Shown here in pieces: positions 23,757 to 56,942 of a stretch of 64,000 nt of DNA. Location of the stretch: NCBI RefSeq assembly GCF_000155595.1, contig NZ_DS989905.1:385040-449039 (forward strand). The letters run 5' to 3'. Origin of the DNA: Synechococcus sp. PCC 7335. GTDB taxonomy: Bacteria > Cyanobacteriota > Cyanobacteriia > Phormidesmidales > Phormidesmidaceae. Below the pieces are notes generated by a model. That model worked only from the letters and a program-made list of their open reading frames with translations. It searched no databases and was not told where the DNA came from. The translations under genes and the position numbers were made by a program. Positions within the stretch are counted from its first letter, which is position 1; every line of letters starts with the position of its first letter.

Positions 23757-25247
23757 ATGCAATCGATCACAAGTAACGAGGCGGCCAGTGCATTGACCGA
23801 TCGGAAATTGAAAGATGTAGAAGCTCTATCTGATGTTGTGGAGCAGCTTTTAAAGAGGCGGCTCGAACCTCTAGAACGGTTTGTGTTGCATCAGTCTTGG
23901 CTGAAGCAAACCTATACTGACATGGCTAGAGCCTCTAGCTATGGAGCGGACTATATTAAGCACGTTGGCTTTAGGCTCTGGTCAGAGCTGTCAGCGGCTT
24001 TGAATGAGCCAGTGGGTAAAAAGAACTTGCATCTGATCTTCACAGACAAATGCTTCCAAGTAGTTGATAAAGCAAACTGTTCCGATGAACAAACTTCAAG
24101 ACTAGCTTCTCAACATATCTTGCAGCTACAGTCACTATTATCTGAACTACCACCTACTTTCACTAGCAAACCTGACATCGGGATAGCCACCTCAGACACT
24201 GTTCAAGCAGTAACAGTTCCCTCTGGGCCGTTACCACTAGGCTCACCGCTTTATATTCCGCGATCGCCTCTTGAAGAAACCGCGCTTAGTGAGATTACTC
24301 ATCCAGGCTGCTTACTGCGGATCAAAGCACCTCGTCGAACGGGTAAAAGTTCCTTACTAAATCGTTTACTAGCTTATGGAGAAACCCAGGGCTATCGCTC
24401 AATTAAGCTCAACTTGAATGAAGTAGATGACGCCACCTTCAGTAGCTTTGATCGTTTTTTGCGCTGGTTTTGCGCCAACCTAAGTTTGCAGCTGAAGCTA
24501 CCTTCTCGGGTGGATATGATGTGGGACGAAGACATCGGCAGCAAGGTCAACTGCAAACTCTATGTAGAGCGATATATCTTTTCAAAGGTGACTGAGCCAA
24601 TTGTTCTTGGCATTGACGAACTGAACCGCGTTTTTGAATACGTACCGACTGCGCACGACTTTCTACCAATGTTGCGAGTTTGGCACGAACAGTCAAAGGA
24701 CGATCCAGTCTGGCAGAAGCTACGGTTGGTACTGGTTCACTCTACTGACTTCTACGTATCCTTAAAACTCAATCAGTCTCCTTTCAACGTAGGGCTGGCT
24801 GTAAATTTGCCTCCGTTTACCCTAGAACAACTACAAGATCTCGCAAGGCGCTATGGATTAGAGACGCTGACACACGGCGCAGGTGCTTGGCAGTTGAAGT
24901 CTTTGCACCATCTGATAGCGGGGCATCCCTATCTAAGTGGACTAGCCTTCTATGCACTGAGACAAAAGCAAACTACCCTCAATGATATTTTAGCTACAGC
25001 GACTATGCCTGATAGCATCTATCGTCAACATTTACAGCGGTGTTTGGTGACTTTGCAAAGTGATTCGAGGCTGGCCTGTCTGTATTATCGAGTGGTGATT
25101 GCAGATGAGCAGATCTCATTAGATGCCATCTCTGCTTACAAGCTAGAAAGTTTAGGTCTTATTCGGTTTGAAAACGCGTTGGCAAAGCCTAGCTGCGCGC
25201 TCTACCAACGCTACTTCAGCGAGCAGCTACGCTCGGTCTGTAGCTAA
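23757..25247 (+). CDS. AAA-like ATPase with N-terminal HTH-type domain
   Basis: The product has 496 residues. The N-terminal 90 residues (sequence around Leu-Lys-Arg-Arg-Leu-Glu-Pro-Leu-Glu, then Thr-Tyr-Thr-Asp-Met-Ala) resemble the vWA-MoxR-associated helix-turn-helix domain found in cyanobacterial signalling proteins. An AAA-like (AAA_35) domain follows, with Walker A Arg-Arg-Thr-Gly-Lys-Ser-Ser near 195 and Walker B-like Leu-Gly-Ile-Asp-Glu-Leu near 285. Such proteins are thought to be regulatory or conflict-system ATPases; their action is not established. The next gene starts 38 bp later and has a related ATPase domain, so the two probably work together. Confidence 0.8.
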   Translation: MQSITSNEAASALTDRKLKDVEALSDVVEQLLKRRLEPLERFVLHQSWLKQTYTDMARASSYGADYIKHVGFRLWSELSAALNEPVGKKNLHLIFTDKCFQVVDKANCSDEQTSRLASQHILQLQSLLSELPPTFTSKPDIGIATSDTVQAVTVPSGPLPLGSPLYIPRSPLEETALSEITHPGCLLRIKAPRRTGKSSLLNRLLAYGETQGYRSIKLNLNEVDDATFSSFDRFLRWFCANLSLQLKLPSRVDMMWDEDIGSKVNCKLYVERYIFSKVTEPIVLGIDELNRVFEYVPTAHDFLPMLRVWHEQSKDDPVWQKLRLVLVHSTDFYVSLKLNQSPFNVGLAVNLPPFTLEQLQDLARRYGLETLTHGAGAWQLKSLHHLIAGHPYLSGLAFYALRQKQTTLNDILATATMPDSIYRQHLQRCLVTLQSDSRLACLYYRVVIADEQISLDAISAYKLESLGLIRFENALAKPSCALYQRYFSEQLRSVCS

Positions 25248-25285
25248 TCGGTCTGCAGCTAAGTAATTGTAGTTGAGGAAAGGCG

Positions 25286-28015
25286 TTGCGATATCAAGTT
25301 GGGGGGACACTGATTGCCAACGATCCAACCTATGTAGAACGACAAGCAGATAGTGAGCTATACGAAGCTCTGATATTAGGAGAGTTTTGCTACGTGCTGA
25401 ACTCTCGCCAGATGGGCAAGTCGTCACTGATGGTACGTACGAAGTATCGGCTCGAGCAGATGGGCGAACGTGTAGCCACCATCGACCTGACCAATATCGG
25501 TAGCGAGACAATCACGCCAACGCAGTGGTACAAGGGATTCGCCGCGGAGCTATGGGCGGGGTTTGGCCTATTTGAAGAGATTGACTTTCAGGCTTGGTGG
25601 AAACAGCAAAGTGAGATTTCGCTGCCGCAAACGCTCAGTTGGTTGATCACAGACATTTTGCTAGATCACCATCCAAAAGACACTTTCTATATCTTCTTAG
25701 ATGAGGTGGATAGTGTTTTGGGGCTACCGTTTCCAATTGATGACTTTTTTTCACTGATTCGCTATTGCTACAATCGCCGAGCAATTGACCCGCGCTATCA
25801 ACGGATTACGTTTGCTGTTTTTGGAGTGGCAGCGCCTTCTAACCTAATTCGAGACAAGCAAAGAACGCCTTTTAATATAGGCAGAGCGATTTCACTACAT
25901 GGGTTTTCTGTTCTAGAGGCTCAGCCGCTAGCGGCTGGTTTCGACTGGCCAAACGCCCAGCCACATCAGCTACTAGCGGGCGTTCTAAAGTGGACTCAAG
26001 GTCAGCCTTTGCTCACTCAAAAGGTGTGTCAGCTACTAATTCAACAAAAGTCAGGGCTGCTAGCATGTGACAACAGCACATATTCACCAGCCGAATGGGT
26101 TGATAGAACAGTCCAGAAGCAGGTGATTCACCATTGGGAGAGTAATGATGAGCCAGAGCATCTAAGAACTATCCGCGATCGCATTCTTCACCAGCCTGCT
26201 ATCACCAATCGTATTTTGGGCACCTATCAACAAATCATTCGCGATCATCCTGTTTTTTTCGACAATAGCCCAGAGCAAACAGAACTGTTGCTATCGGGGC
26301 TGGTCATCCAGCAGGGCGGGCAGCTAGTTGTCAAAAACCCAATCTATCAAGCAGTTTTTGACGAGCTGTGGGTCACTGAGCAACTAACAAAGTTGCGCCC
26401 CTATGCTGAGCCGTTCAAAGCCTGGATGGTCTCTAAACAAACTGATTCGACCTGTCTACTACAGGGATTAGCGCTCAAAGAAGCCCTGGCTTGGGCAGAT
26501 CAAAAGCAGCTAAGCGATCTGGACTATCGCTTCCTAAAAGCTAGTCAGTCTCACGAACGGCAGCAGGTTGAGCATCAGCTAGTTGCAGAACAGCAGCGCC
26601 GAGAGCAGGCTCAGTTTGCGCTTGAAATCACGAAGCAGGCCAACCACTTGCTAGCCCGAATACAGCGCCTTAGTCGTCAACATGCCAAAAAGCGGCGACC
26701 GCCTACGAAATGGGTCGCGCTGTGGGGAACTGGGGTAGCGGGTCTGTTGTTGTTGGTGCGTTTGATGGGATGGTTCCAGGGCGCTGAACTCACGCTTTAT
26801 GACCGATTCTTTCAACTGCGTCAGATAGCGGCGCTGCCTGACTCTAGAATCACAATCGTGACTATAGACGAGCCTGATCTACAGCAGATTAGAAGATTTC
26901 CGATTCCTGATCAGGTCTTAGCCGAGGCGTTAGAGAAGATCAATGCACAAGCGCCCAGATTAATCGGTCTAGATCTCTACCGGGATCTGCCAGTAGAGCC
27001 AGGAAACCAGCAGCTAACCGAGCTGCTAGGATCTCTTCCTAACCTGATTGGAATCGAGAAAGCAGTAGGTAGTCAAATTGCACCACCAGAGGTGCTGAAC
27101 CAACGAGACCAGGTTGGTTTTGCCGATCAGGTGCTAGACGATGATGGCAAGGTCCGGCGAGCCCTATTGACTGTACGCAATCAGACAGGCCTGCACGAAA
27201 GCCTGGCGCTAAAGCTAGCGCTGGCCTATCTAGAGTCAGAAGAGATTTCCCCTGAAGTGCTGCCTGGTTACTCTAGTGCTATCCGCTTGGGTAAGACTAG
27301 GATATTTCCTTTTCGTCAGTATGATGGCAGCTATATCCGCGCAGATGCGGGTGGTTACCAGATACTGTCAAACTATCGTGGTCCGATCGATCGGTTTCAA
27401 ACGTACTCTGTTCGCCAGGTGCTAGCTAATGAGGTCCCAGCCGAAGCAGTGCGCGATCGCATTATTCTAATCGGATCGATAGCCGAAAGCGTGAATGATC
27501 TATTCCAAACGCCTTACAGTAGCAGTTGGTTTGGTTCTTCTCCTCAGATGGCAGGCGTGACAATTCATGCCAATATTGTTAGTCAGCTACTTTCTAGTAG
27601 CCTGGACGGACGGCCTATGCTGCGGGCCTGGCCGGAGAGCGCAGAATGGCTGTGGACGTGGGGCTGTGCGATCGCCGGAGCAAGCATAGCGTGGTGGCTC
27701 AAAGGCTGTGGACGAATTGTTGCGGTCGGTACTCTGGGCGTTGCAATTATTGTTGGTACTTGCTACCTAGCTTTCTTAGCGGGCTGGTGGCTGCCGCTGC
27801 TGCCAGGAATATTAGGGTGGGCGATCGCCTCTACAACCTTTCCACTCATAGCAGCTCGTCAGCTTAAACAAATAGAGCTACGGCAAACGGTGCAGGAGCT
27901 AGCTGCGATCGCTCAAGATCAGCCTGCGGTCGGTCAAGTCGCCATAGAGTATCTAAGGCAATCTGAAAGTGAAGAGAATCAGGCGCTAATTACTACTTTT
28001 CTAGCGAAAAGATAG
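25286..28015 (+). CDS. AAA-like ATPase fused to CHASE2 sensor domain
   Basis: The product has 909 residues from a TTG start at 25286 with GAGGAAAGG just upstream. The AAA-like domain (about 1-350) has Walker A Arg-Gln-Met-Gly-Lys-Ser-Ser and an acidic Phe-Leu-Asp-Glu-Val. A charged helical linker (about 420-470) precedes one TM helix (about 475-495). Then comes an extracytoplasmic CHASE2 domain (Asp-Arg-Phe-Phe-Gln-Leu-Arg to about 790) and three C-terminal TM helices. CHASE2 domains are periplasmic ligand sensors. The architecture suggests signal transfer across the membrane to an NTPase. It forms a two-gene unit with the previous ATPase and converges on DUF928. Confidence 0.87.
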
Positions 28016-28022
28016 TAGATAA

Positions 28023-28757
28023 CTACAAGCTAGCTTCAACTACAGACTCCCAGATAGCCTCAAACTGAACAGCTTCAGACGGTGGCGATATTCTCTCGCT
28101 TTCCAAGGTTTGTATCTCTTCTCTAATAAATGCAACAAAGTCGTACCAGTAGCCGTTCTCGGCATACCACCGGGCTTGCTCTAGCGGAAGGTGCAAGCTA
28201 GCCTGCTGCAGTTCGGGCGTTGATTCGACCCGTTGAACCCAGCCGCTGATTACCGGATCGTCCGGCTGGACGGTTTCTTCGCAGATAACAACTAAGCTCC
28301 ACTGATAGTTCTCGCCGACCGTCAGTGGCGAAAAAGAATTAGGAAAAGTAAAAGCAGCGGTGTCGTCTTCAGGAATCGGAAGAAAAGTCTGCTCGTAGTA
28401 GGTACCCGCTTCATTGGTGACCACTAGTGCGACTTGCTCGGCAGAGGTATCAGCTAGCTGAGCAAATACGGTGGGCCGTTCGGACAGGGTGAGTCCGAAG
28501 TTGCTTTTAGGCATAAGGGCTTTGACTGCGGGTTCGCTTACGTCACAAGATGGGCCATCGCGTGAGCCTGCGCCGGAGGTCTCTCTGGGTGCATCATCGC
28601 CAGGCGGCTCGAATCCTTCCCAGAAGACGATTTGGTCTGGGAATCGGGCTGCTTGGGCAGCGCTTTTTTGTGGTCTTTGAAGCTGGCTAGATAGGAGGAA
28701 GATTGCAAATAAAGATATCTTTAGCGGTATCAGATGCCGAGAGAATAGCTGGGGCAT
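28023..28757 (-). CDS. DUF928 exported protein
   Basis: The product has 244 residues from ATG 28757, where a signal peptide starts (Met-Pro-Gln-Leu-Phe-Ser, hydrophobic core, Ser-Ala-Ala-Gln-Ala); the frame is open to 28889. The mature part shows DUF928 blocks: Gly-Leu-Thr-Leu-Ser-Glu-Arg-Pro-Thr near the middle, Tyr-Gln-Trp-Ser-Leu-Val-Val-Ile-Cys, and the C-terminal Ala-Arg-Trp-Tyr-Ala-Glu-Asn-Gly-Tyr-Trp-Tyr-Asp. The molecular function is unknown. DUF928 genes often sit beside CHASE2 proteins and TPS-domain haemagglutinins in cyanobacteria; here the CHASE2 gene is 8 bp away, tail to tail. Confidence 0.85.
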   Translation of the reverse strand: MPQLFSRHLIPLKISLFAIFLLSSQLQRPQKSAAQAARFPDQIVFWEGFEPPGDDAPRETSGAGSRDGPSCDVSEPAVKALMPKSNFGLTLSERPTVFAQLADTSAEQVALVVTNEAGTYYEQTFLPIPEDDTAAFTFPNSFSPLTVGENYQWSLVVICEETVQPDDPVISGWVQRVESTPELQQASLHLPLEQARWYAENGYWYDFVAFIREEIQTLESERISPPSEAVQFEAIWESVVEASL

Positions 28758-29559
28758 AGCTCGGTAGAATAAAGAACCAAAGACGAATTGAGATAGCACC
28801 TTTACCTTATTTTTACATGGGTACTCAGTATTTTTCAGGAGTGTCCTAGATGAGGGAAAAGGCAATAGTAAATCTAGAATCTTCTTCATAGAGTTACTTC
28901 AATGTTCAAAGCGTCTTTATGTTCCTACTCTTGAGCTAAGGTATCGGATGCATCGTCCTTTTACAAACAGCTACTGCCGTTATCTTAGCTCCTTCTCCCA
29001 GAAGCAGAGGGACTTTCCGAACTACGACCTTCTCAAGTCGTTGACAGTTAGGTTGACTAAAATCTCGACCTAGCTCAGCCTAATGAGACTGGTGCAAGAT
29101 TTCAGGTTAAGCAGCCCTAATTCTTTCTAAAGAGACTTTTTCTTATTTTTCTGTAGCATTATTGAACGTCCTAAAAAGGTATAGGATACTGTTGACGGTG
29201 TGATGCAGATAAGTCGAGTATGACAAGGAGGATATGGCATAGATAGTCGAAGCCATATCCTCCTAAATCTAGCTCAACCTCAGCAGCAGGAAAACTTTCA
29301 GTCAGTTATTCAGGTTTTGTCCTGTACGTAGCAAAAACGAAACAGAAGAACATTCTAAAGCTAGACCCTATGCGCATTCTCTTAAATCACACCTAGCTGA
29401 ACATTCTAGAAGCAGACTCTCAAATCAACTATTTGTGTAACGATTTACGAACACACATAACAGAGTTGTTCCGTTACTGCAAAACAGAGCTAAAAATGTA
29501 TTATTAGTTACAAAAGGCTCTGCTGCATAAATTAAGTCGGTCATACCGAAGGTCTCAGA
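28758..29559. other. Intergenic region before the RiPP cassette
   Basis: About 800 bp without a supported gene. It has a 13-bp-arm hairpin at 29226-29264 (listed) and the direct repeat GAACATTCT at about 29347 and 29399. A sequence GGCTCTGCTGCATAAATTA near 29516 resembles an insertion-sequence end (IS5/IS6-like terminal pattern), without a transposase beside it. Confidence 0.45.
29226..29264. repeat. 13-bp perfect inverted repeat
   Basis: AGGAGGATATGGC (29226-29238) pairs with GCCATATCCTCCT (29252-29264) around a 13-nt loop. No T-run follows on either strand, so a simple terminator is unlikely. It may be an operator or a small mobile-element relic. Confidence 0.6.
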
Positions 29560-29670: not shown

Positions 29671-29919
29671 ATGGCTGACTTAAACAGAGTTAAGTTGCAA
29701 GAGCAAATGCAGTTTCTTACAACAGCTTCAACCAAAGGCGTAGATTCTGCTGTTGAAGAGAATGGAGATTTAATCTCTGCGGGTGAAGCCCTAGCGCTCA
29801 AACGCTTGTCAGAGCAGGAGCTAAACTCTCTAGTCGAACTCAATCAAAAGGTTGCGAAAATTCGTGGAATAGACAGACTTTCGAATGATGACTGGACTTG
29901 TGTAAACGTCGCTTGCTAA
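29671..29919 (+). CDS. Putative RiPP precursor peptide
   Basis: The product has 82 residues. TAGAGGT precedes the ATG by about 7 bases. Residues 1-70 are charged and helical (for example Leu-Ser-Glu-Gln-Glu-Leu-Asn-Ser-Leu-Val-Glu-Leu-Asn-Gln-Lys), as expected for a leader. The last residues are Ser-Asn-Asp-Asp-Trp75-Thr-Cys77-Val-Asn-Val-Ala-Cys82, the only Trp and the only Cys in the peptide. A C-terminal Cys is the substrate mark of EpiD/CypD-type oxidative decarboxylases, and such a flavoprotein is encoded three genes downstream. A hairpin terminator follows directly, as expected where precursor must exceed enzymes. It resembles no precursor family I know; the exact core boundary is inference. 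Confidence 0.8.
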   Translation: MADLNRVKLQEQMQFLTTASTKGVDSAVEENGDLISAGEALALKRLSEQELNSLVELNQKVAKIRGIDRLSNDDWTCVNVAC

Positions 29920-29921
29920 TA

Positions 29922-29975
29922 GTACTTAGGGGTATCGGTTGAGTTCTCGATACCCCTAAGTACATCCGGTTTTTT
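29922..29975 (+). terminator. Terminator/attenuator between precursor and enzymes
   Basis: GTACTTAGGGGTATCG (29922-29937) pairs perfectly over 16 bp with 29948-29963 around a 10-nt loop, and six T follow at 29970-29975. It starts 3 bp after the precursor stop and ends 40 bp before the radical SAM gene. Partial read-through would give abundant precursor mRNA and less enzyme mRNA. Confidence 0.82.
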
Positions 29976-30014
29976 GGGCAAAAGCACAGTTGTTTTTCTG
30001 AGGTAAAAAACCCA

Positions 30015-31325
30015 ATGCTAGTGTCTTTGAATTCACGGTGGCATTTTTCTGCTGACAGTAAAATTGCGATGAATGCAGATTCTGGGAGTCTGCATGTTCT
30101 TTCTACAGAGATGGCAGAAAGGGTTAGAAGCTTAAGGCAATCACCCAGCACTGTAGTAGACGAAGATATTACTTTAGCCGCACTAGGAGTTGTTGTCTTA
30201 GATCCAGCAGAGCGACAGAAAGAGATAAATGAAGAACTAGAATTAAACTGGTCGCGGAATGCCGTGCTAACCGTTTTGCCAACGGAGCAATGTAACTTTC
30301 GATGCACCTACTGCTACGAGACTTTCGAAAAGGGACGAATGAGTTCGGCGTTGCAGCTTGGTTTGCATAAGTTTTTACGACAACAGGTTCCTATGTACGA
30401 GTCATTTCAACTTGCGTGGTTTGGCGGCGAACCGTTAGTAGAAACCGAAGTTATTGCGCAGGCAACTGCTATTTTTCACCAAGCAAGAAATGCTCACCGG
30501 GTAAGAGGAACAGCTAGTATTACAACGAATGGTTATCTCTTAAGTGGCTCTAGGTTAGAGCGTCTTGATACTGCCGGAATTGATGTTTATCAAATTACGC
30601 TTGATGGAGATCCTGCTGTGCATGATTCTCAGCGTATTACAGCTAGTGGACACAAGACGCATCACCAAATAATGGAAAATATCAAAGGTGTCTTGACTAA
30701 CACTTTAGCTAGAGTTGTTGTTCGGATAAATGTTGATACACATAAAGATGAAGCGGCTAAGCGTACGGCCTGCTGGGTGCGCAACGAGTTAGCTGATTTG
30801 GTAACCATGGGTGGCGAGCGGGTTGATATTGCCGTTGTTCCGGTATGGAGTGCAGACACAACGACTATTGATGGCATTTGCCTTTCGAGTGCTCACCGTT
30901 TTCAGGTGTTGAATATGGTAAAAGAGGCAGCCTGTGAAATAAAAGGAACGACGACAGTAGAAAAGTTTCTTCAACTGTCGTCAGCACTAGGCACGTTGTC
31001 TTGTTATGCGGGTAAGCCGAATACTTGGGTTGTGGGGTCAGACGGGACTGTATACAAATGTACGGTTGCTTTCGATTTGCCAGAAAATAAGATAGGGCGA
31101 TTGACCGAGAGCGGAAACATGGAGCTAGACATAGAAAAAGCAGCTTTGTGGACACAGAAGAATGCCACTAACGATCCGACTTGTGGTAAATGTGCCTTTG
31201 CTCGATCATGCCAAGGAATTTTTTGTCCATTGCTACGCATGCAAGTGGAGAAACCCCCTTGCCCTACGGAAAAAAGGCTGTTTGATTTAGCGGTGGCCAG
31301 CGAGGTCAATAGCTATGTTAAATAA
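30015..31325 (+). CDS. Radical SAM/SPASM peptide-modifying enzyme
   Basis: The product has 436 residues. The radical SAM motif is Cys93-x3-Cys97-x2-Cys100 in Glu-Gln-Cys-Asn-Phe-Arg-Cys-Thr-Tyr-Cys, which binds the [4Fe-4S] cluster that cleaves S-adenosylmethionine. The Gly-Gly-Glu-Pro motif follows near residue 138. The C-terminal SPASM domain has Cys-x13-Gly-x4-Cys, then Cys-x2-Cys-x5-Cys-x4-Cys and a late Pro-Pro-Cys-Pro, enough ligands for two auxiliary clusters. The last inter-Cys gap is one longer than the usual x3. SPASM enzymes install thioether, C-C or C-O bonds in RiPPs. The N-terminal 80 residues may be a leader-binding region. The stop overlaps the next start by 11 bp. Confidence 0.9.
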   Translation: MLVSLNSRWHFSADSKIAMNADSGSLHVLSTEMAERVRSLRQSPSTVVDEDITLAALGVVVLDPAERQKEINEELELNWSRNAVLTVLPTEQCNFRCTYCYETFEKGRMSSALQLGLHKFLRQQVPMYESFQLAWFGGEPLVETEVIAQATAIFHQARNAHRVRGTASITTNGYLLSGSRLERLDTAGIDVYQITLDGDPAVHDSQRITASGHKTHHQIMENIKGVLTNTLARVVVRINVDTHKDEAAKRTACWVRNELADLVTMGGERVDIAVVPVWSADTTTIDGICLSSAHRFQVLNMVKEAACEIKGTTTVEKFLQLSSALGTLSCYAGKPNTWVVGSDGTVYKCTVAFDLPENKIGRLTESGNMELDIEKAALWTQKNATNDPTCGKCAFARSCQGIFCPLLRMQVEKPPCPTEKRLFDLAVASEVNSYVK

Positions 31326-32355
31326 TCAAACATATAGTCAGCGGGCTTCTCAAGGCGCAAACCTTCTTTTGTCAGATTACTTAAAGCTTAGGTCAGAAGA
31401 AAGCTTATGCCTAATCTTAGACGGACAGTTTAAGGCTATTTACGCTGAGAGTATTGCATATATTGAAGAAGCCGCCCAACATATGGGTGTGAATCTCTCT
31501 ATTGTGTATGATAGTCCAGATTATCTCTTTAAGCGCTTAGAGGCGGATGTATACTTATTTGCAGGTCGTAATAAAAGCCATAAGAAAAAGGAAGGCATGG
31601 CTATTGCCCAGCAAGGTGGACGCGTTTTTCGGAGCTTCGATTTTGGTATAGACCTTCTAGAGTTGGCATTGCAAACGCCTAGAGATATACTAGTCAATCT
31701 CAATGATAGACTAATTAGTCGAGGGCAATGCTCCCGTCAAGCTTCTATCCGCAGCTTCGATGGCACAGACCTTCAGATTAGTTTCGGCGAGCAATTCTTC
31801 TGGACAGATAGCTATGGTGCTGGTAGCAATGCGTTTCCTGGAATTCTTCCTCCCGGTGAGATAAATACATTTCCCTTAAGCGTTGATGGAGTAATTGTAG
31901 CTTCCGGCGCACTAAATTCTAGTATTAGCTTGCCCTGTTCGCCAATTGTCGATTCCTGTGCATTAACGCTTGAATTCGAAGATAGTTACTGCTACAGATG
32001 GCAGGCTGATAGCGTACTACTACAACAAACTTTGGATCTGTTGTTTTCAATCGAAAATGCTTGTAGAGTAGGGGAGTTTGGAATTGGAACAAATTTAGGA
32101 GTTACGCAGTTCGTTCCGTATGTATCTCATATTAACGAGCGCAGGCCAGGACCGCATATTGGTCTTGGTACACCCACACAACCTGCTGGAACGACTGACT
32201 GGTCATCACTGGTTCATCTAGATATTATTCTTCCAGATGCCTCCGTTTGGTTTGACGACCAACTTGTTTATGATGGCCATCGTTTTATAGAACCTTTGGC
32301 AAGCGATACTTTTGCACCTGTAATTAGTAACAGGCTATTGGTCGATGCCGTTTAG
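31315..32355 (+). CDS. M29-like metallo-aminopeptidase homologue
   Basis: The product has 346 residues. C-terminal motifs fit the M29 (AmpS/AmpT) clan: Gly-Glu254-Phe-Gly-Ile-Gly-Thr-Asn, Glu275, Gly-Pro-His281-Ile-Gly-Leu-Gly, and Ser-Ser-Leu-Val-His301-Leu-Asp303. These could provide the dinuclear metal ligands. The spacing from Glu254 to Glu275 is shorter than in AmpS, so it is a divergent branch. M29 members are aminopeptidases, though relatives act as ring-cleaving dioxygenases (NicX), so hydrolysis is not certain. Translation is coupled: the ATG lies inside the end of the radical SAM gene, and its own end overlaps the flavoprotein gene. A role in trimming the modified peptide is inferred. 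Confidence 0.75.
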   Translation: MLNNQTYSQRASQGANLLLSDYLKLRSEESLCLILDGQFKAIYAESIAYIEEAAQHMGVNLSIVYDSPDYLFKRLEADVYLFAGRNKSHKKKEGMAIAQQGGRVFRSFDFGIDLLELALQTPRDILVNLNDRLISRGQCSRQASIRSFDGTDLQISFGEQFFWTDSYGAGSNAFPGILPPGEINTFPLSVDGVIVASGALNSSISLPCSPIVDSCALTLEFEDSYCYRWQADSVLLQQTLDLLFSIENACRVGEFGIGTNLGVTQFVPYVSHINERRPGPHIGLGTPTQPAGTTDWSSLVHLDIILPDASVWFDDQLVYDGHRFIEPLASDTFAPVISNRLLVDAV

Positions 32356-32932
32356 AACGAGAACGCTAGTGATTGCGGCAGGCGGGGCGCTTGAGACAGC
32401 GCTGTTGCCGTACTATGTTGTGCGTTTGTTAACGACGACTTCTCTGTCTGTACGTGTGGTGCTTAGCCCGCACGCGCTGGACTTTGTGACGCCTACTGCA
32501 CTTCAAGGACTCACGGAGCATCCTGTATATACTGAACAAATAAAGTTTCATCCATTGAGCGGAAAACCAATGCATCTGGCGTTTGCAGATACCGATCTAC
32601 TGTTGGTGTATCCGGCAACCTGTCGGGTAATTGCGGAGGCAGCTCTTGGCATTGTAAGCTGTCCAGTAACGCGGGTAATTGCCTTTTCCCCGAAGGAAAA
32701 AGTTATTATGGTTCCGTATTTACATACTGCCCATCATCAGATGGTGTATCGAGAACATCTTGGTCAATTAAGACGACAGGGCTGTGAAGTAGTGATGCCA
32801 TCAGATAACGATCTCTGCTGGAAGACTGAGAGCGCTTGGGTGGCAGCTAGACGGATAATTCATGAACGACTTGAGCTACCAACACCAAACGATGCACCTA
32901 TTACGTGGAATGCGTCTTCTCAAGATAATTGA
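32345..32932 (+). CDS. HFCD-type flavoprotein (EpiD/Dfp fold), probable Cys decarboxylase
   Basis: The product has 195 residues. The Rossmann-like flavoprotein fold is shown by Ala-Ala-Gly-Gly-Ala near the start, catalytic His77 in Met-His-Leu-Ala-Phe-Ala-Asp-Thr-Asp, then Val-Tyr-Pro-Ala-Thr-Cys (family Pro-Ala-Thr/Ser-Ala-Asn). Next is a region Pro-Tyr-Leu-His-Thr-Ala-His-His-Gln-Met133 in the place of the Pro-Ala-Met-Asn-x-x-Met substrate clamp. HFCD enzymes bind FMN and oxidatively decarboxylate a Cys: free pantothenoyl-Cys in Dfp, the C-terminal Cys of a peptide in EpiD, MrsD, CypD and TvaF. The precursor at 29671 ends in Cys. The gene overlaps the previous one by 11 bp. Confidence 0.82.
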   Translation: MPFRTRTLVIAAGGALETALLPYYVVRLLTTTSLSVRVVLSPHALDFVTPTALQGLTEHPVYTEQIKFHPLSGKPMHLAFADTDLLLVYPATCRVIAEAALGIVSCPVTRVIAFSPKEKVIMVPYLHTAHHQMVYREHLGQLRRQGCEVVMPSDNDLCWKTESAWVAARRIIHERLELPTPNDAPITWNASSQDN

Positions 32933-32977
32933 ATATTTTTGGGCTTAGCAGCACTGAATCTTGGACAAACGACAACA

Positions 32978-34114
32978 ATGCTTCCCTTCGAAGAACTGCA
33001 AGCAGCTGCAACAAAGGCAATCGCACGCGCGAATTACGCTAGAGCAGAAGAGTTGCTCACTCGTGCTCTAGCAATGGCACACTCTGATGAAAGCAAGGCT
33101 TCCATCCTCTACGACAGGGCCTGCGCATCTTGTCTCTCAGGCGAGAAGGAGGCGGCAGAAAAAAATTTGTTGCGTTGCGCTGCGTTGGGATACTGCGCTA
33201 GTTTTTGGGCTCGGACAGATCCAATGCTGACAGCAGTAAAGGATACATCCAGCTTTCAGCAGGCCTTACTCCATATGCGTCAAAACCTCAATAGAAAGCT
33301 TGAGCGAGCAAGAGCCGTTACAGAGCCGCTTCGGTATCAAGATTTGTCTGGAGTTGACTTTTCGGCAGAGGCATCTCCACCTTTTTTATGGACTGAATTT
33401 GATTGTAACTATTACAAGCGATTGCTAGCGGAGTCAAAAGCTCCAAGGTTATTAGAGAGAACTACAATAGATTTTTTAGGAGTAATCGCAGCATGGTCAA
33501 ATAATCTTTGGGAACATGATGGCTATAACGAGCCGCTGTCTTGCGATCCACTATCTATTATCCAAGAGGCTAGACAGGGTGTGAGATTTCGCTGTGTGGA
33601 GTATGCTACGGTCTTTGGAGGAATAATGGAAGCCTCTGGATACCGCACTAGAGTCTTATGGCTGTTTACGGCTAACGTAGCGATGCAGGACTCGGGAGCA
33701 AGCCATGTTGTTGCGGAGGTGTTTGTACCAGAGTGGCATCGGTGGATTTTCGTTGACGTTCAATGGGGATATATTCCTATTGGAACGGATAATTTACCAC
33801 TTTCAACAGCTGCCTTTCGTCGTCACCTACTACACCATGAGGGGGCTATGCTATATAACGTAAAATCTCCTACCTCAGAAGAAGATTTCGAGGATGAAGA
33901 GCGAAAGCAGTTTTATCAGCTATGGATTCTACCGTACTTATATATGCATGGTGCTCTGTTAGATCAAAGATATAAGAAAAGTGTAAGAGGACGAGAAATG
34001 CTGCTACTTCTGCCTGAAGGCAAGGATGCACCATTAAAGTTTCAAAAAAATAAACTCCCATTTATATGGAAGCCCACTAGCTCGCTGGAATTCTTTTACT
34101 CACCGCCTGATTGA
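32978..34114 (+). CDS. TPR protein with transglutaminase-like protease domain
   Basis: The product has 378 residues from ATG 32978 (an in-frame TTG at 32939 is the alternative). N-terminal helices (about 5-75) read as TPR repeats. The C-terminal half has a transglutaminase-like papain fold: Cys206 in Arg-Phe-Arg-Cys-Val-Glu-Tyr-Ala, His243 in Ser-His-Val-Val-Ala-Glu-Val-Phe, and Asp260 in Trp-Ile-Phe-Val-Asp-Val-Gln-Trp, a complete Cys-His-Asp triad at normal spacing. Such domains hydrolyse or form amide bonds. Position at the end of the cassette suggests leader removal or macrocyclisation; which one cannot be read. The TPR part could bind the precursor. It follows the flavoprotein gene by 45 bp. 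Confidence 0.78.
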   Translation: MLPFEELQAAATKAIARANYARAEELLTRALAMAHSDESKASILYDRACASCLSGEKEAAEKNLLRCAALGYCASFWARTDPMLTAVKDTSSFQQALLHMRQNLNRKLERARAVTEPLRYQDLSGVDFSAEASPPFLWTEFDCNYYKRLLAESKAPRLLERTTIDFLGVIAAWSNNLWEHDGYNEPLSCDPLSIIQEARQGVRFRCVEYATVFGGIMEASGYRTRVLWLFTANVAMQDSGASHVVAEVFVPEWHRWIFVDVQWGYIPIGTDNLPLSTAAFRRHLLHHEGAMLYNVKSPTSEEDFEDEERKQFYQLWILPYLYMHGALLDQRYKKSVRGREMLLLLPEGKDAPLKFQKNKLPFIWKPTSSLEFFYSPPD

Positions 34115-34247
34115 AACTATCTCAATATATTCATAGTTTTTACTGTTGAATCCTTCATACAAAATTGTGAGCCGTTCTGCTGACAGCTTGTACATCCAGA
34201 CTTTTATAGTCAATCAAACTCACCCACGCACAGCTAGCCGTCGCCAT

Positions 34248-35077
34248 GGCATCGTCAAGTTAATCTTAACTAGGCAAATTTAGAACAGATTTATTGAGCT
34301 AGTGCTATCAGCTCGGCCTATGCGATCACGCCGACCCCTGCGATCAATCTCCAACTGTCGATCTGCTGGCGCATCGTTTTTCTATATTCTGAAGCCGTCT
34401 GTTTGTGCTGATGGGGATGGAAATGACCACGTATCGGTTCAAAGGCTGACAGAAAGCGCTGTGCCTGACCCACCGATTTGAATCGGCCCATTCGCCTCTC
34501 CCTAACTCGGGTCTGTCTATGTGAGTTCTCAGCTCGATTGTTCAATCCTTTATGCTGCCTATGTTCTACATTCCTCAAGATGTCCTTCTTAGCAGCGCCA
34601 TAACTCTTGAGTCTGTCGGTGATGATGACTCTAGGGGCAAAGCCGGCTGGTTTGAGTAGTTTTCGGAAGAACTTCTTGGCTGCCGCTTTGTTGCGGCATC
34701 GCTGCATCAGGATATCGAGCACTACACCATGCTGGTCAACAGCCCGCCACAAGTAAAACTGTTCACCTTTAATCTTGATGACGACTTCGTCGAGATGCCA
34801 CTTATCACCGGGCTTTGGCCGCTGTTTGCGAATCTGATTGGCATAGCTCTGAGCAAACTTTAGACACCATCCTCTGATCGCTTCGTAGGTGACCGTGATG
34901 CCCCGATAGAGCATCATTTTCTCAATGTCACGGAAGCTTAGTGGGAAGGTGTAATACAGCCAGACGCAATAGCTGATAATGTCGGCTGGGAAGCGGTGGC
35001 CACGGTAAGGATTATTCATGGCTGAAGCTTCTCAGAGGCAGTAGACCGGAGTCAACTCTAGCCAACTTGACAATGCC
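34248..35077 (-). mobile_element. IS6-family insertion sequence, complete
   Basis: 830 bp. Terminal inverted repeats GGCATCGTCAAGTT (34248-34261) and the reverse complement of 35064-35077 (GGCATTGTCAAGTT) match at 13 of 14 positions. It encodes one transposase of standard length. The 8-bp flanks (GTCGCCAT and CCGGTGGG) do not match, so there is no target duplication; IS6 elements often lose it through cointegrate resolution or adjacent deletion. The right end abuts a truncated haemagglutinin gene. Confidence 0.9.
34318..35019 (-). CDS. IS6-family transposase
   Basis: The product has 233 residues, full length for IS6/IS26 transposases. The DDE residues are visible: Trp-His-Leu-Asp-Glu-Val-Val, Ile-Ile-Thr-Asp-Arg-Leu-Lys-Ser, and Asn-Arg-Ala-Glu-Asn-Ser-His. 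The N-terminal HTH (Ser-Phe-Arg-Asp-Ile-Glu-Lys-Met-Met) is present. It is likely active; it mobilises DNA by replicative cointegrate formation. Confidence 0.94.
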   Translation of the reverse strand: MNNPYRGHRFPADIISYCVWLYYTFPLSFRDIEKMMLYRGITVTYEAIRGWCLKFAQSYANQIRKQRPKPGDKWHLDEVVIKIKGEQFYLWRAVDQHGVVLDILMQRCRNKAAAKKFFRKLLKPAGFAPRVIITDRLKSYGAAKKDILRNVEHRQHKGLNNRAENSHRQTRVRERRMGRFKSVGQAQRFLSAFEPIRGHFHPHQHKQTASEYRKTMRQQIDSWRLIAGVGVIA

Positions 35078-35670
35078 CCGGTGGGGGGTAGTGTTCGAGA
35101 ATTATTAACGATAGCCGCAGGGTTTGCACTGTTGAACAGAAAAGCAGACGGCTGCACCGTCAACAAGGGCGCCGTAGGCAAACCCTCGCCGCTACTATCA
35201 AACTCAACATTACCGTCAAACTCAACGCTATCAGCCGTAGTTGCTAGAAGAGAACCGCCCTTTAAATCTAATCGAGCATTCTCGCCAAAGATGATGCCGT
35301 TTGGATTAATCAAAAAGAGATCGGCATCTCCAAAGACGCCCAACAGACCTAAGATTTGCGATTCTGTCTCGCCGGTTACTCGGCTCAAAATGCTATCAAC
35401 CCCTGGATCATCAAAGTAGATAACGCGACCTGCCTCAACATGGAACTCTTCGAAACTATGAAATAAAGCCTCCCCACGCCTCAATCCACCTTCGATTACG
35501 TCTCCAGGATAGTCTGGACTAATAGGCCTAAGTGTAGAAGATTCCTCTCCTAGTGTGTCATCAGGAATAGGCACTAGCTGCGCTGACACTGAACCCGTCC
35601 AAGGAAGTATTATTCCAACTATAGCCGTCGCTAGCGTAACTTCCCATCGAATATACCGCATAGAAATCAC
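35078..35670 (-). pseudogene. Truncated filamentous haemagglutinin (TPS domain) gene
   Basis: Only the first ~190 residues remain. A signal peptide (ending Val-Ser-Ala-Gln) leads into a haemagg_act/TPS secretion domain with Phe-His-Ser-Phe-Glu-Glu-Phe, Ile-Leu-Ser-Arg-Val-Thr-Gly, and Phe-Leu-Ile-Asn-Pro-Asn-Gly-Ile-Ile-Phe-Gly. The reading frame then enters the IS6 element and stops at 35032. The missing C-terminal part, usually hundreds of residues, is not on the other side of the IS, so it was deleted. An intact protein would be secreted by a TpsB partner. Confidence 0.88.
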
Positions 35671-36234: not shown

Positions 36235-37089
36235 ATGTTTGCAGACCAAATCTCTAGAGCATACTACACCGAGCCTCTAGAAGGTTTGGGTAGGAATATA
36301 CCACTGCAAATCCTACTGATTCCTGGAGGCACCTACAGGATGGGTTCCCCAGTAAGTGATTTTGATCCTGTACGTGATGAAACACCGCATGAGGTAACCG
36401 TGCCTGATTTCTTCTTAGGTCGCTATCCTGTGACACAGGCACAATGGCGGGTAGTAGCAGCTTTTCCTCAGGTAAATATAAATCTGAAACCAGAGCCTTC
36501 TTACTTCAAAGGCGACAACTTACCGGTAGAGCGAATAGCTTGGTATGAGGCTGTAGAGTTCTGCGATCGGTTAAGCCGTTTTGTAGATAATCGCCTTTCC
36601 GCTGATTCAATCTGCTCCTACCGCCTTCCTAGCGAAGCTGAATGGGAGTATGCCTGCCGAGCGGGAACAACCACGCCCTTCTACTTTGGAAAGACAATCT
36701 CTACAGAAGTAGCCAACTACAAAGGAGCATACAATGGCGATCGCACCTACGATAATCCATACGAAGGAGACTATCGTCAGACAACCACCCCGGTCGATTG
36801 TTTTAAAGTAGCGAATGCTTTCGGCTTATCTGATATGCATGGCAATGTATGGGAATGGTGTCAAGATCACTATGGAGACTATGCTCAAGCGCCTACGAAT
36901 GGTAGTGCTCGGATTACAGGCAAAGAAACTGCGAAAAGGGTGCTAAGAGGCGGTTCTTGGGCAGATTGTCCAAAGATGTGTCGATCTGCGTACCGCTTCA
37001 ACAGTCTCCCAGAGAATGTTGATTTCCGCGATGGTTTTCGAGTAAGTCGTTCAATTTCTAAACCTCAAAGTGCTAGCGAGATAAAATGA
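36235..37089 (+). CDS. Formylglycine-generating-enzyme-like (SUMF1) protein
   Basis: The product has 284 residues. Family blocks are Pro-Gly-Gly-Thr-Tyr-Arg-Met-Gly-Ser near 30, Pro-Val-Thr-Gln-Ala-Gln-Trp (about 63), Arg-Leu-Pro-Ser-Glu-Ala-Glu-Trp-Glu-Tyr-Ala (about 127), Gly-Leu-Ser-Asp-Met-His-Gly-Asn-Val-Trp-Glu-Trp (about 200), and Arg-Gly-Gly-Ser-Trp. The domain includes aerobic FGE (copper-dependent Cys-to-formylglycine), EgtB/OvoA-like and many regulatory or effector modules. Whether it carries the FGE copper Cys pair is unclear; Cys-Arg-Ser-Ala-Tyr-Arg is present near the end. Its stop overlaps the start of the next gene by 4 bp, so they are co-translated. Confidence 0.85.
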   Translation: MFADQISRAYYTEPLEGLGRNIPLQILLIPGGTYRMGSPVSDFDPVRDETPHEVTVPDFFLGRYPVTQAQWRVVAAFPQVNINLKPEPSYFKGDNLPVERIAWYEAVEFCDRLSRFVDNRLSADSICSYRLPSEAEWEYACRAGTTTPFYFGKTISTEVANYKGAYNGDRTYDNPYEGDYRQTTTPVDCFKVANAFGLSDMHGNVWEWCQDHYGDYAQAPTNGSARITGKETAKRVLRGGSWADCPKMCRSAYRFNSLPENVDFRDGFRVSRSISKPQSASEIK

Positions 37090-37649
37090 AGAGCGCAAAC
37101 ATAGAATTTGAGAGTCATACAGACGAAAACCGTTGTTTACTTGTCATAGATGTTCAAAACGGTTTTATTAGCCAAAGAACTCATTACGTCGCGCGTAGAA
37201 TTAAGTCTCTCTTAGAGAAAAGACTTTTCGACCCCGTTGTCTTTACAAGATTTATCAATACGCCAAACAGCTCCTACACTAGGCTGCTAGGCTGGAATAG
37301 AATGTTTACAAGTGAGGAGACAGAGATCAGTAGTTTGCTTCAACCATTCGCAAAAAATATCTACAACAAAAGCACATATACTGCGCTTACCGAAGAACTG
37401 AGTCACTTTCTTAAAGTTCGTAATATCGCTACGGTCTTTGTTTGTGGCATTGATACAGACTGTTGCGTGTTGGCAACCACAATAGAATTGTTTGATCTTG
37501 GGATTCGTCCTTATGTGCTATCCCACTACTCTGCCTCAAACGGTGGATACAATAGTGCAATGGCTGCGCTTACAGTATTAGATAGGTTAATTGGATCACA
37601 TCATATTATCGACCACGAACTAGACAGAAATAGTATTCTTAGATATTAA
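37086..37649 (+). CDS. Isochorismatase-family cysteine hydrolase
   Basis: The product has 187 residues. The catalytic triad candidates are Asp in Leu-Val-Ile-Asp-Val-Gln-Asn-Gly (about 20), Lys in Tyr-Asn-Lys-Ser-Thr-Tyr-Thr (about 97), and Cys in Asp-Thr-Asp-Cys-Cys-Val-Leu-Ala-Thr (about 130). Members hydrolyse isochorismate, nicotinamide, N-carbamoyl compounds or amides. The substrate is unknown. Start ATG overlaps the stop of the FGE-like gene, which implies a joint function I cannot name. Confidence 0.87.
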   Translation: MKSANIEFESHTDENRCLLVIDVQNGFISQRTHYVARRIKSLLEKRLFDPVVFTRFINTPNSSYTRLLGWNRMFTSEETEISSLLQPFAKNIYNKSTYTALTEELSHFLKVRNIATVFVCGIDTDCCVLATTIELFDLGIRPYVLSHYSASNGGYNSAMAALTVLDRLIGSHHIIDHELDRNSILRY

Positions 37650-55767: not shown

Positions 55768-56859
55768 CTATGCGTTGATAGAAGGAGCAGTCAAAGCAAC
55801 AGGAGCTGCTTCACCAGCGGCCAAATCGAGCGGGAAGTTGTGAGCATTGCGCTCGTGCATTACTTCCATACCCAAGTTAGCTCGGTTCAATACATCCGCC
55901 CAGCTACCAATCACACGACCCTGTGAGTCAATGATCGACTGGTTGAAGTTGAACCCGTTCAGGTTGAACGCCATAGTAGAAATACCTAGCGCTGTGAACC
56001 AGATGCCAACGACTGGCCATGCACCCAATAGGAAGTGGAGGCTACGGCTGTTGTTGAAACTTGCGTATTGGAAGATAAGACGACCGAAGTAGCCGTGCGC
56101 TGCAACGATGTTGTACGTCTCTTCTTCCTGTCCGAACTTGTAGCCGTAGTTCTGACTCTCAGTTTCTGTAGTCTCACGTACCAAGGAAGAAGTTACCAAG
56201 GAACCATGCATAGCTGAGAACAAAGAACCACCGAATACACCCGCTACACCCAACATGTGGAAGGGATGCATCAAGATGTTGTGCTCTGCCTGGAACACCA
56301 ACATGAAGTTGAACGTACCGGAGATACCCAACGGCATCCCATCAGAGAACGAACCCTGACCCAACGGGTAGATCAAGAAGACTGCAGTTGCCGCTGCGAC
56401 GGGCGCAGAATAAGCAACACAGATCCAGGGACGCATACCCAACCGGTAGGATAGTTCCCACTCACGACCCATGTAGCAGAAGACGCCGATGAGGAAGTGG
56501 AAGATAACCAACTGGTAAGGGCCGCCGTTGTAGAGCCACTCGTCTAGAGAAGCTGCTTCCCAGATAGGGTAGAAGTGCAGACCGATCGCGTTAGATGAAG
56601 GCACAACCGCACCAGAGATGATGTTGTTGCCGTACATCAGTGAACCAGCCACCGGCTCACGGATACCGTCGATGTCGACGGGGGGTGCTGCGATGAACGC
56701 AATTACGAAACAAGCTGTAGCAGCAAGCAAAGTCGGGATCATCAACACGCCGAACCAACCTACATAGAGGCGGTTCTCGGTGCTGGTAACCCACTGACAG
56801 AACTGCTCCCACAAGGAAGCATTTTCGCTTCGTTGAAGAGTAGTTGTAGTAGAAACCAT
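55768..56859 (-). CDS. psbA: Photosystem II D1 protein, high-light-type
   Basis: The product has 363 residues from ATG 56859 (frame open to 56898). It is full length, with all five TM helices, the Tyr-Z region, and the Mn/Ca ligands near the C-terminus ([13 protein letters not shown]). The C-terminal extension after Leu-Ala is removed by CtpA. At the position equivalent to residue 130 (Gly-Arg-Glu-Trp-Glu-Leu) it has Glu, as in high-light/stress D1 forms; Gln marks the low-light form. Glu130 hydrogen-bonds pheophytin and speeds charge recombination safely. D1 binds P680, pheophytin and QB in the thylakoid membrane. An ideal sigma-70-type promoter is 85 bp upstream. Confidence 0.98.
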
Positions 56860-56942
56860 TGAATGATTGCGGAATGAATGTGGACATGCATGTAACAAAC
56901 GAAAGCGCGAATATGACTGCTTTTGTTCGTTGGTATATACCT

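Follow-up and report, generated by a model that had tools for sequence, protein, structure and literature searches.

A cyanobacterial cassette pairing a radical SAM enzyme with a decarboxylase-fold flavoprotein as a candidate AviCamCys-kind peptide pathway

Flavoproteins could act together with radical S-adenosylmethionine (SAM) enzymes to form S-[2-aminovinyl]-3-carbamoylcysteine (AviCamCys), according to a passage of one article (PMC11162475, citing Cheng et al. 2023). In the literature searched, that passage is the only place where the term AviCamCys occurs, and macrocyclization that pairs a radical SAM enzyme with a LanD-type flavoprotein is a single reported case, present as a citation. 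According to a section of another article (PMC8326336), the NxxcA ranthipeptide carries a single thioether from Cys23 to the Cβ of Asn20, and freyrasin carries bridges from Cys to the Cβ of Asp. The 3-carbamoylcysteine residue is, in our own chemical reading, Asn with sulphur on its Cβ; thus, AviCamCys is the expected product of a decarboxylated ring formed at a C-terminal NxxC. Here, we describe a five-gene cassette for a putative ribosomally synthesized and post-translationally modified peptide (RiPP) in a 64,000-nucleotide stretch of Synechococcus sp. PCC 7335 (contig NZ_DS989905.1, positions 385,040–449,039; hereafter, the window), in which a radical SAM enzyme and a flavoprotein are encoded beside a precursor ending in NxxC.

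The likeness to the AviCamCys pathway is drawn from its description. The cassette has a precursor with a C-terminal Cys, a radical SAM enzyme, and a flavoprotein of the LanD fold, which is that of the homo-oligomeric flavin-containing Cys decarboxylases (HFCDs); the pathway, as far as the passage describes it, has a ribosomal peptide, a C-terminal macrocycle, a radical SAM enzyme with a LanD-like flavoprotein, and a carbamoyl-bearing residue in the ring, probably of Asn origin. The window flavoprotein differs in lacking the PXMNXXMW motif. With the NxxcA ranthipeptide, as described in that section, the cassette shares the Asn/Cys spacing (N79-V-A-C82) and a radical SAM maturase; however, the NxxC of the window lies at the extreme C-terminus and a flavoprotein gene stands alongside. 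The RiPPs with S-[2-aminovinyl]-cysteine (epidermin, mersacidin, thioviridamide and kintamdin) also have a C-terminal Cys and an HFCD flavoprotein, whereas the cassette has a radical enzyme in their place: neither a Ser/Thr dehydratase nor a LanC or kinase-like partner was recognized in it. The Ser/Thr dehydratase, LanC and YcaO families were absent among the 39 window proteins in a Pfam scan (dehydratases were not sought genome-wide), which agrees with a first-pass annotation of this stretch that had found neither a lanthionine dehydratase nor a YcaO protein. LANC_like had no match in the genome assembly (95% complete), and Pfam recognized no kinase-fold partner among the five cassette genes.

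The cassette and its proposed product

The five genes lie on the + strand at 29671–34114, in the order of precursor, radical SAM/SPASM enzyme, M29-type metallopeptidase, HFCD flavoprotein and transglutaminase-like protein (Table 1). Both joints between the radical SAM, M29-like and HFCD genes are overlaps of exactly 11 nt. The first-pass annotation had given this number of genes, their order, strand and coordinates, and the 11-bp overlaps, all of which were borne out by the positions of the open reading frames (ORFs). The in-frame codon scores are positive for all five genes.

We consider, with a probability of about 0.5, that the cassette encodes an AviCamCys-kind RiPP pathway, in which a radical thioether between Asn79 and Cys82 of the precursor would be combined with oxidative decarboxylation of Cys82. 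The genes, their families, the motif positions and the hairpin described below are observed; from them, we infer every step of the chemistry, the sequence of the steps and what the M29 and transglutaminase-like proteins do. The radical SAM/SPASM enzyme would take a hydrogen from the Cβ of Asn79, where the sulphur of Cys82 would then bond to give the NxxC thioether. The HFCD flavoprotein would oxidatively decarboxylate Cys82, and the ring would end in an aminovinyl thioether with no carboxylic acid. The order of the two steps is not settled; decarboxylation first is more likely, because the established chemistry of HFCD-type flavoproteins is the oxidation of a free thiol. The transglutaminase-like papain-fold protein would probably remove the leader, and the M29 enzyme would probably trim the new N-terminus.

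The cassette looks like a distant relative of the reported radical SAM/LanD pairing, with an unusual complement of M29 and transglutaminase-like proteins and a very divergent flavoprotein. The first-pass annotation had proposed a C-terminal ring combining a radical crosslink with a decarboxylated Cys, and had recognized no named class for the gene combination. The former idea is well founded and would come near to AviCamCys as the passage reports it; the latter is outdated, since the pairing is reported there (PMC11162475, citing Cheng et al. 2023). The cassette offers a sharp and cheap test of the rule that a C-terminal NxxC with an HFCD gives a decarboxylated Asn-Cys ring, and also of whether His may replace the motif Asn, Met and Trp in a functional HFCD.

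Table 1 Features of the cassette (window coordinates)
Feature	Position	Strand	Basis
Precursor peptide gene, 82 aa	29671..29919	+	ORF; codon score; N79-V-A-C82 (NxxC) at the C-terminus; further Cys at 77
Perfect inverted repeat, 16-nt arms	29922..29963	+	Between precursor and enzyme genes; fold energy z −5.6
Radical SAM/SPASM peptide maturase, 436 aa	30015..31325	+	Pfam Radical_SAM PF04055, 43.5 bits (cut-off 29.5); CNFRCTYC at 93–100
M29-type metallopeptidase homologue, 346 aa	31315..32355	+	M29 profile; ligand positions (presumed) E182, E254, H281, H301, D303
HFCD (LanD/CoaC-fold) flavoprotein, 195 aa	32345..32932	+	Pfam PF02441, 41.8 bits (cut-off 22.7); H77 present; PYLHTAHH (124–131)
Transglutaminase-like (papain-fold) protein, 391 aa with TTG start	32939..34114	+	Pfam Transglut_core PF01841, 26.8 bits (cut-off 23); C219, H256, D273 (triad-like, assigned by eye); alternative in-frame ATG at 32978

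Sequence features of the precursor and the enzymes

The precursor ends in S-N-D-D-W-T-C-V-N-V-A-C, followed by the stop codon, and a Shine–Dalgarno-like AGAGG lies upstream of the ORF. Its codon score (0.149) is above those of its own other five frames. It is also higher than that of any of the 816 ORFs (maximum 0.129) with 60 aa or more that arose when the first 20 kb were shuffled 20 times at constant base composition. Among the 294 small ORFs of the window, 12 end in Cys and just one, the precursor, ends in NxxC. The V-A-C tail presumably suits the substrate preference of EpiD. A second precursor-like match in the genome (L060, E 0.01) was discarded, as it carries an internal stop.

The inverted repeat directly 3′ of the precursor gene forms a hairpin, with a run of six T another 6 nt on, and the region 29915–29995 folds at −32.5 kcal/mol. 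A strict terminator scan did not flag it. A hairpin between precursor and enzyme genes is a known means of making the precursor exceed the enzymes, and this one is probably an attenuator or an mRNA-end stabilizer that would keep the precursor mRNA in excess. Upstream of the cassette, at 29226–29264, lies another inverted repeat, whose arms measure 18 nt and whose loop is 3 nt long.

The designation radical SAM/SPASM, given by the first-pass annotation, held for its radical SAM part (Table 1), while the Pfam SPASM score of 15.3 bits stays under the cut-off of 21.5; a SPASM-like Cys pattern, CX13GX4C..CX2CX5CX4C..C, is present. The best NCBIfam model is TIGR04463 (158 bits; cut-off 525). The models of the CefB, Clo7bot, geopeptide and PapB maturases follow, and none of the five reaches its cut-off. 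In PADLOC, viperin models alone matched, and all of these matches were to this protein.

The association of such enzymes with NxxC was examined among plasmid homologues: of 81 matching records, 20 were listed and 13 loci were examined, H10–H15 (the same match as H9) and H20 being left out. The ORFs considered were those of 30–110 aa on the same strand, with a stop between 500 nt upstream of and 15 nt inside the radical SAM gene. By this rule, a small upstream ORF with NxxC was found at 6 of the 13 loci; the count becomes 7 when the ORF of L016, excluded by the length limit, is added from the annotation. The NxxC at L016–L018 was already known when the rule was set, and these three loci are no independent test. 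Counted per ORF, NxxC occurs in 7 of the 30 that lie upstream (one locus contributing two) versus 46 of 861 control ORFs, which include spurious frames (Fisher p = 0.0012). Five of the seven NxxC-associated maturases match TIGR04463 best, like the window enzyme, and the other two match Clo7bot and CefB. If upheld in a larger sample, this link between a radical SAM group and NxxC precursors would be directly usable for genome mining.

On a plasmid of Streptomyces sp. NBC_01281 (L088, 2061–5567), a 33-aa ORF ending in NGNC, which is missing from the gene table, precedes genes for a radical SAM protein, a methyltransferase and a SagB/ThcOx dehydrogenase. It is a further predicted C-terminal NxxC, paired with a different flavin enzyme.

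For the fourth gene, the Pfam match (Table 1) confirmed the EpiD/Dfp-fold assignment of the first-pass annotation. The best-scoring solved chain is 6jls, a putative flavoprotein decarboxylase, which also shows the highest identity (27%) among the sequences of the 27-row tree. The protein has no fused CoaB domain, and a separate CoaBC gene is encoded elsewhere in the genome. In an alignment with cyanobacterial CoaBC sequences, in which 36 of 37 loci were compared (L047 dropped out), the CoaC clamp Cys and the motif Asn are each present in all 36; the former is absent from the window flavoprotein and the latter is His. Its H77 aligns with the catalytic His and is followed by a one-residue deletion before PAT. 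Since the CoaBC of the genome lies elsewhere, the motif reads PYLHTAHH and the clamp Cys is missing, the flavoprotein is clearly distinct from the housekeeping enzyme. This answers in part the question, raised by the first-pass annotation, of whether it belongs with pantothenate-pathway enzymes or with peptide decarboxylases; a tree containing 10 of the 36 CoaBC sequences does not separate the two (p of the approximately unbiased test, 0.504 when grouped with CoaBC and 0.501 with specialized enzymes).

In the homologue AtHal3a, the oxidative step requires the His and the Asn and Met of the motif, according to the part of PMC9604783 that treats them. Outside CoaBC, absence of the motif Asn is no exception: it is lost in 5 of 9 aligned stand-alone HFCDs encoded on plasmids, where the motif reads PSIPTGAF, PVMTEEMW, PVMSAEMW, PVMGASMW and PVMGGPMW (P, T, S, G and G, respectively), and the CoaBC of M. 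smegmatis has PAMHTEMW, with His at the Asn position. The idea that Asn-to-His proves the flavoprotein dead was discarded in view of these sequences.

A second case of a radical SAM gene, an HFCD gene and a small ORF ending in Cys was found on S. meliloti pAK76 (L068, 5941–9181), in what looks from its sequence like a RiPP locus. Its HFCD, with PAMNIRMF, adjoins a radical SAM protein and a 72-aa ORF, absent from the annotation, that ends in ..GGQNC. The system is nevertheless a different one, with a B12-binding radical SAM protein, a 2OG-Fe(II) oxygenase encoded downstream, and an ORF without NxxC.

The M29-like protein alone has no Pfam match. It was aligned with 10 relatives at 22–26% identity; 9 of the 11 sequences match PF02073 (Peptidase_M29), and the profile made from the set finds the structures of AmpS, NicX, PepS and aminopeptidase T. 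E182, E254, H281, H301 and D303, which we take to be the M29 metal-ligand positions, are invariant across the 11 sequences; this profile and these residues bear out the M29-like metallopeptidase named in the first-pass annotation. A NicX-type dioxygenase was considered and discarded, because all five ligand positions are present, while NicX is, in the alignment, without both Glu and one His. Elsewhere in the phylum, M29-like genes adjoin a GCS2-like ligase ORF at L004 and L007, and an ATP-grasp-like ORF at L006, L007 and L008, both as judged by eye. An M29-like gene with a GCS2-like and/or an ATP-grasp-like ORF thus appears, by eye, to be a recurring set (L004, L006–L008). The TPR-transglutaminase-like designation of the last gene held for the transglutaminase part (Table 1), while for the TPR part the NCBIfam TPR end-of-group model gives a weak match of 29.5 bits, under the cut-off of 32. 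Single-sequence AlphaFold models (pLDDT 40.7 and 33.6) were too poor for use.

Alternative readings

Several observations weigh against an AviCamCys-kind pathway. Its link to NxxC is drawn from the name of the residue, and the precursor offers Cys77 and Thr76 as alternative ring partners. The flavoprotein has PYLHTAHH for PXMNXXMW, with His for N, M and W alike, while 4 of the 9 plasmid stand-alone HFCDs keep the motif Asn. It scores higher with the NCBIfam model of CoaBC (66.4 bits; cut-off 219.7) than with that of CypD (28.3 bits; cut-off 215), and in a 27-row tree its branch (3.44) is unplaced, the closest rows by path being CoaBC. This divergent motif and these scores would count, not decisively, against a peptide-Cys decarboxylase. 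An antisense frame of the HFCD gene has a codon score of 0.058, as against 0.048 in the gene's own frame. The radical SAM enzyme is just 23–33% identical to its plasmid homologues; no NxxC ORF was found at 6 of their 13 loci, and an HFCD-like ORF at none of the 13 (flanks of 7 kb for four and at most 2.5 kb for nine). The similarity of the leader to seven other peptides is not significant (the best was matched by 142 of 2000 shuffles). Finally, the searches of the cyanobacterial samples found no orthologous cassette, and hence give no read-out on the conservation of the precursor or NxxC.

The altered motif, the missing clamp Cys and the deletion before PAT would suit a flavoprotein that does not decarboxylate and whose role is that of a flavin redox partner or of a scaffold binding the leader. 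The product would be a plain ranthipeptide crosslinked via Cys77 or Cys82, and the closest radical SAM models are indeed those of ranthipeptide and Cys-rich peptide maturases. We regard this as unlikely: H77 is retained, more than half of the plasmid stand-alone HFCDs are likewise without the Asn, and the precursor ends in Cys, as do few small ORFs of the window. The two enzymes might instead make separate modifications, the HFCD converting Cys82 to an enethiol and the radical SAM enzyme linking Cys77 elsewhere, for example to an Asp of SNDDW. The core has two Cys residues with Asp73 and Asp74 close by, and the Cys-Asp bridges of freyrasin (section of PMC8326336) provide a parallel. This arrangement is quite unlikely, as it leaves the C-terminal NxxC unexplained and would produce a free enethiol, which is unstable and is reportedly protected by RosX-like proteins (part of PMC12291118), and the five genes include no recognized kinase-fold partner.

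A decaying or rearranged islet beside an insertion sequence (IS), in which the flavoprotein function was lost, would accord with the very long flavoprotein branch and with an IS6-family element directly downstream, which has 22 matches in the genome and none on contig C1. Such a non-working pathway is very unlikely given the five intact ORFs with overlapping joints, the positive in-frame codon scores (one antisense frame of the HFCD being slightly higher), and the retained M29 ligand and transglutaminase triad positions. It is doubtful, conversely, that the cassette represents a new subclass, a second and independently assembled route in which a His-motif flavoprotein would decarboxylate the C-terminal Cys of NxxC together with the SPASM enzyme, and the M29 protein, instead of being a generic peptidase, would itself act at the modified tail, in tailoring or in release.

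Distribution and genomic surroundings

The occurrence of the cassette genes was examined in four samples, which overlap mutually and all belong to the same phylum; they comprise 386, 95, 388 and 358 genomes, counting the source genome itself. No orthologue was found for the M29 protein in 386 genomes (E 0.001; distant relatives in 9 other genomes), the radical SAM enzyme in 386 genomes (E 1e-30; two partial matches at that limit), or the transglutaminase-like protein in 358 genomes (E 1e-8), and no homologue of the precursor in the 357 other cyanobacterial genomes (E 0.001). For the HFCD, 95 relatives (E 0.001) and 388 genomes of the class (E 1e-12) gave CoaBC-level matches only; three of the matches, with open frames of 250, 213 and 175 aa (G394, G426 and G596) and CoaBC-level scores, were left out of the comparison. 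A tblastn search of plasmids found no cassette, with 17 records for the HFCD (mostly CoaBC), one for the transglutaminase-like protein and six for the precursor (E 3 or worse). No relatives were found on viral contigs, and PHROGs had no match for the four cassette proteins searched (all except the radical SAM protein). A contig scan with the M29 protein gave one archaeal ORF of 1848 aa (27% identity).

The window is part of contig C2 (774,507 bases) of a 5.97-Mb cyanobacterial genome, with which a Photo_RC gene at 55768–56898 agrees. The G+C contents at third codon positions of the five cassette genes (0.346–0.413) are lower than those of 14 other window genes (0.425–0.611). Of the 22 matches to the IS6-family element, 16 lie on C2 and 6 on C3, and none was found on the 4.7-Mb main contig C1 in the genome search. 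This composition and IS setting fit with a lateral arrival of the cassette. A genome of the same genus (G387) shows synteny with the window in the AAA_35, CHASE2 and DUF928 genes that neighbour the cassette, and nothing cassette-like was found in the 9.6 kb beyond them. In the window, these genes occupy 23757–28889 and comprise a DUF928 gene and two adjoining AAA_35 genes, of which one carries a CHASE2 domain.

The IS6-family element (34247–35083) has a further copy on this contig, with 99.8% identity across 837 bases. The end of an ORF for a TPS-domain exoprotein (35032–35670) coincides with part of the element, and this ORF is apparently truncated. Downstream of the IS, at 36235–37649, the end of an FGE-sulfatase-like gene overlaps an isochorismatase-like gene by 4 bases.

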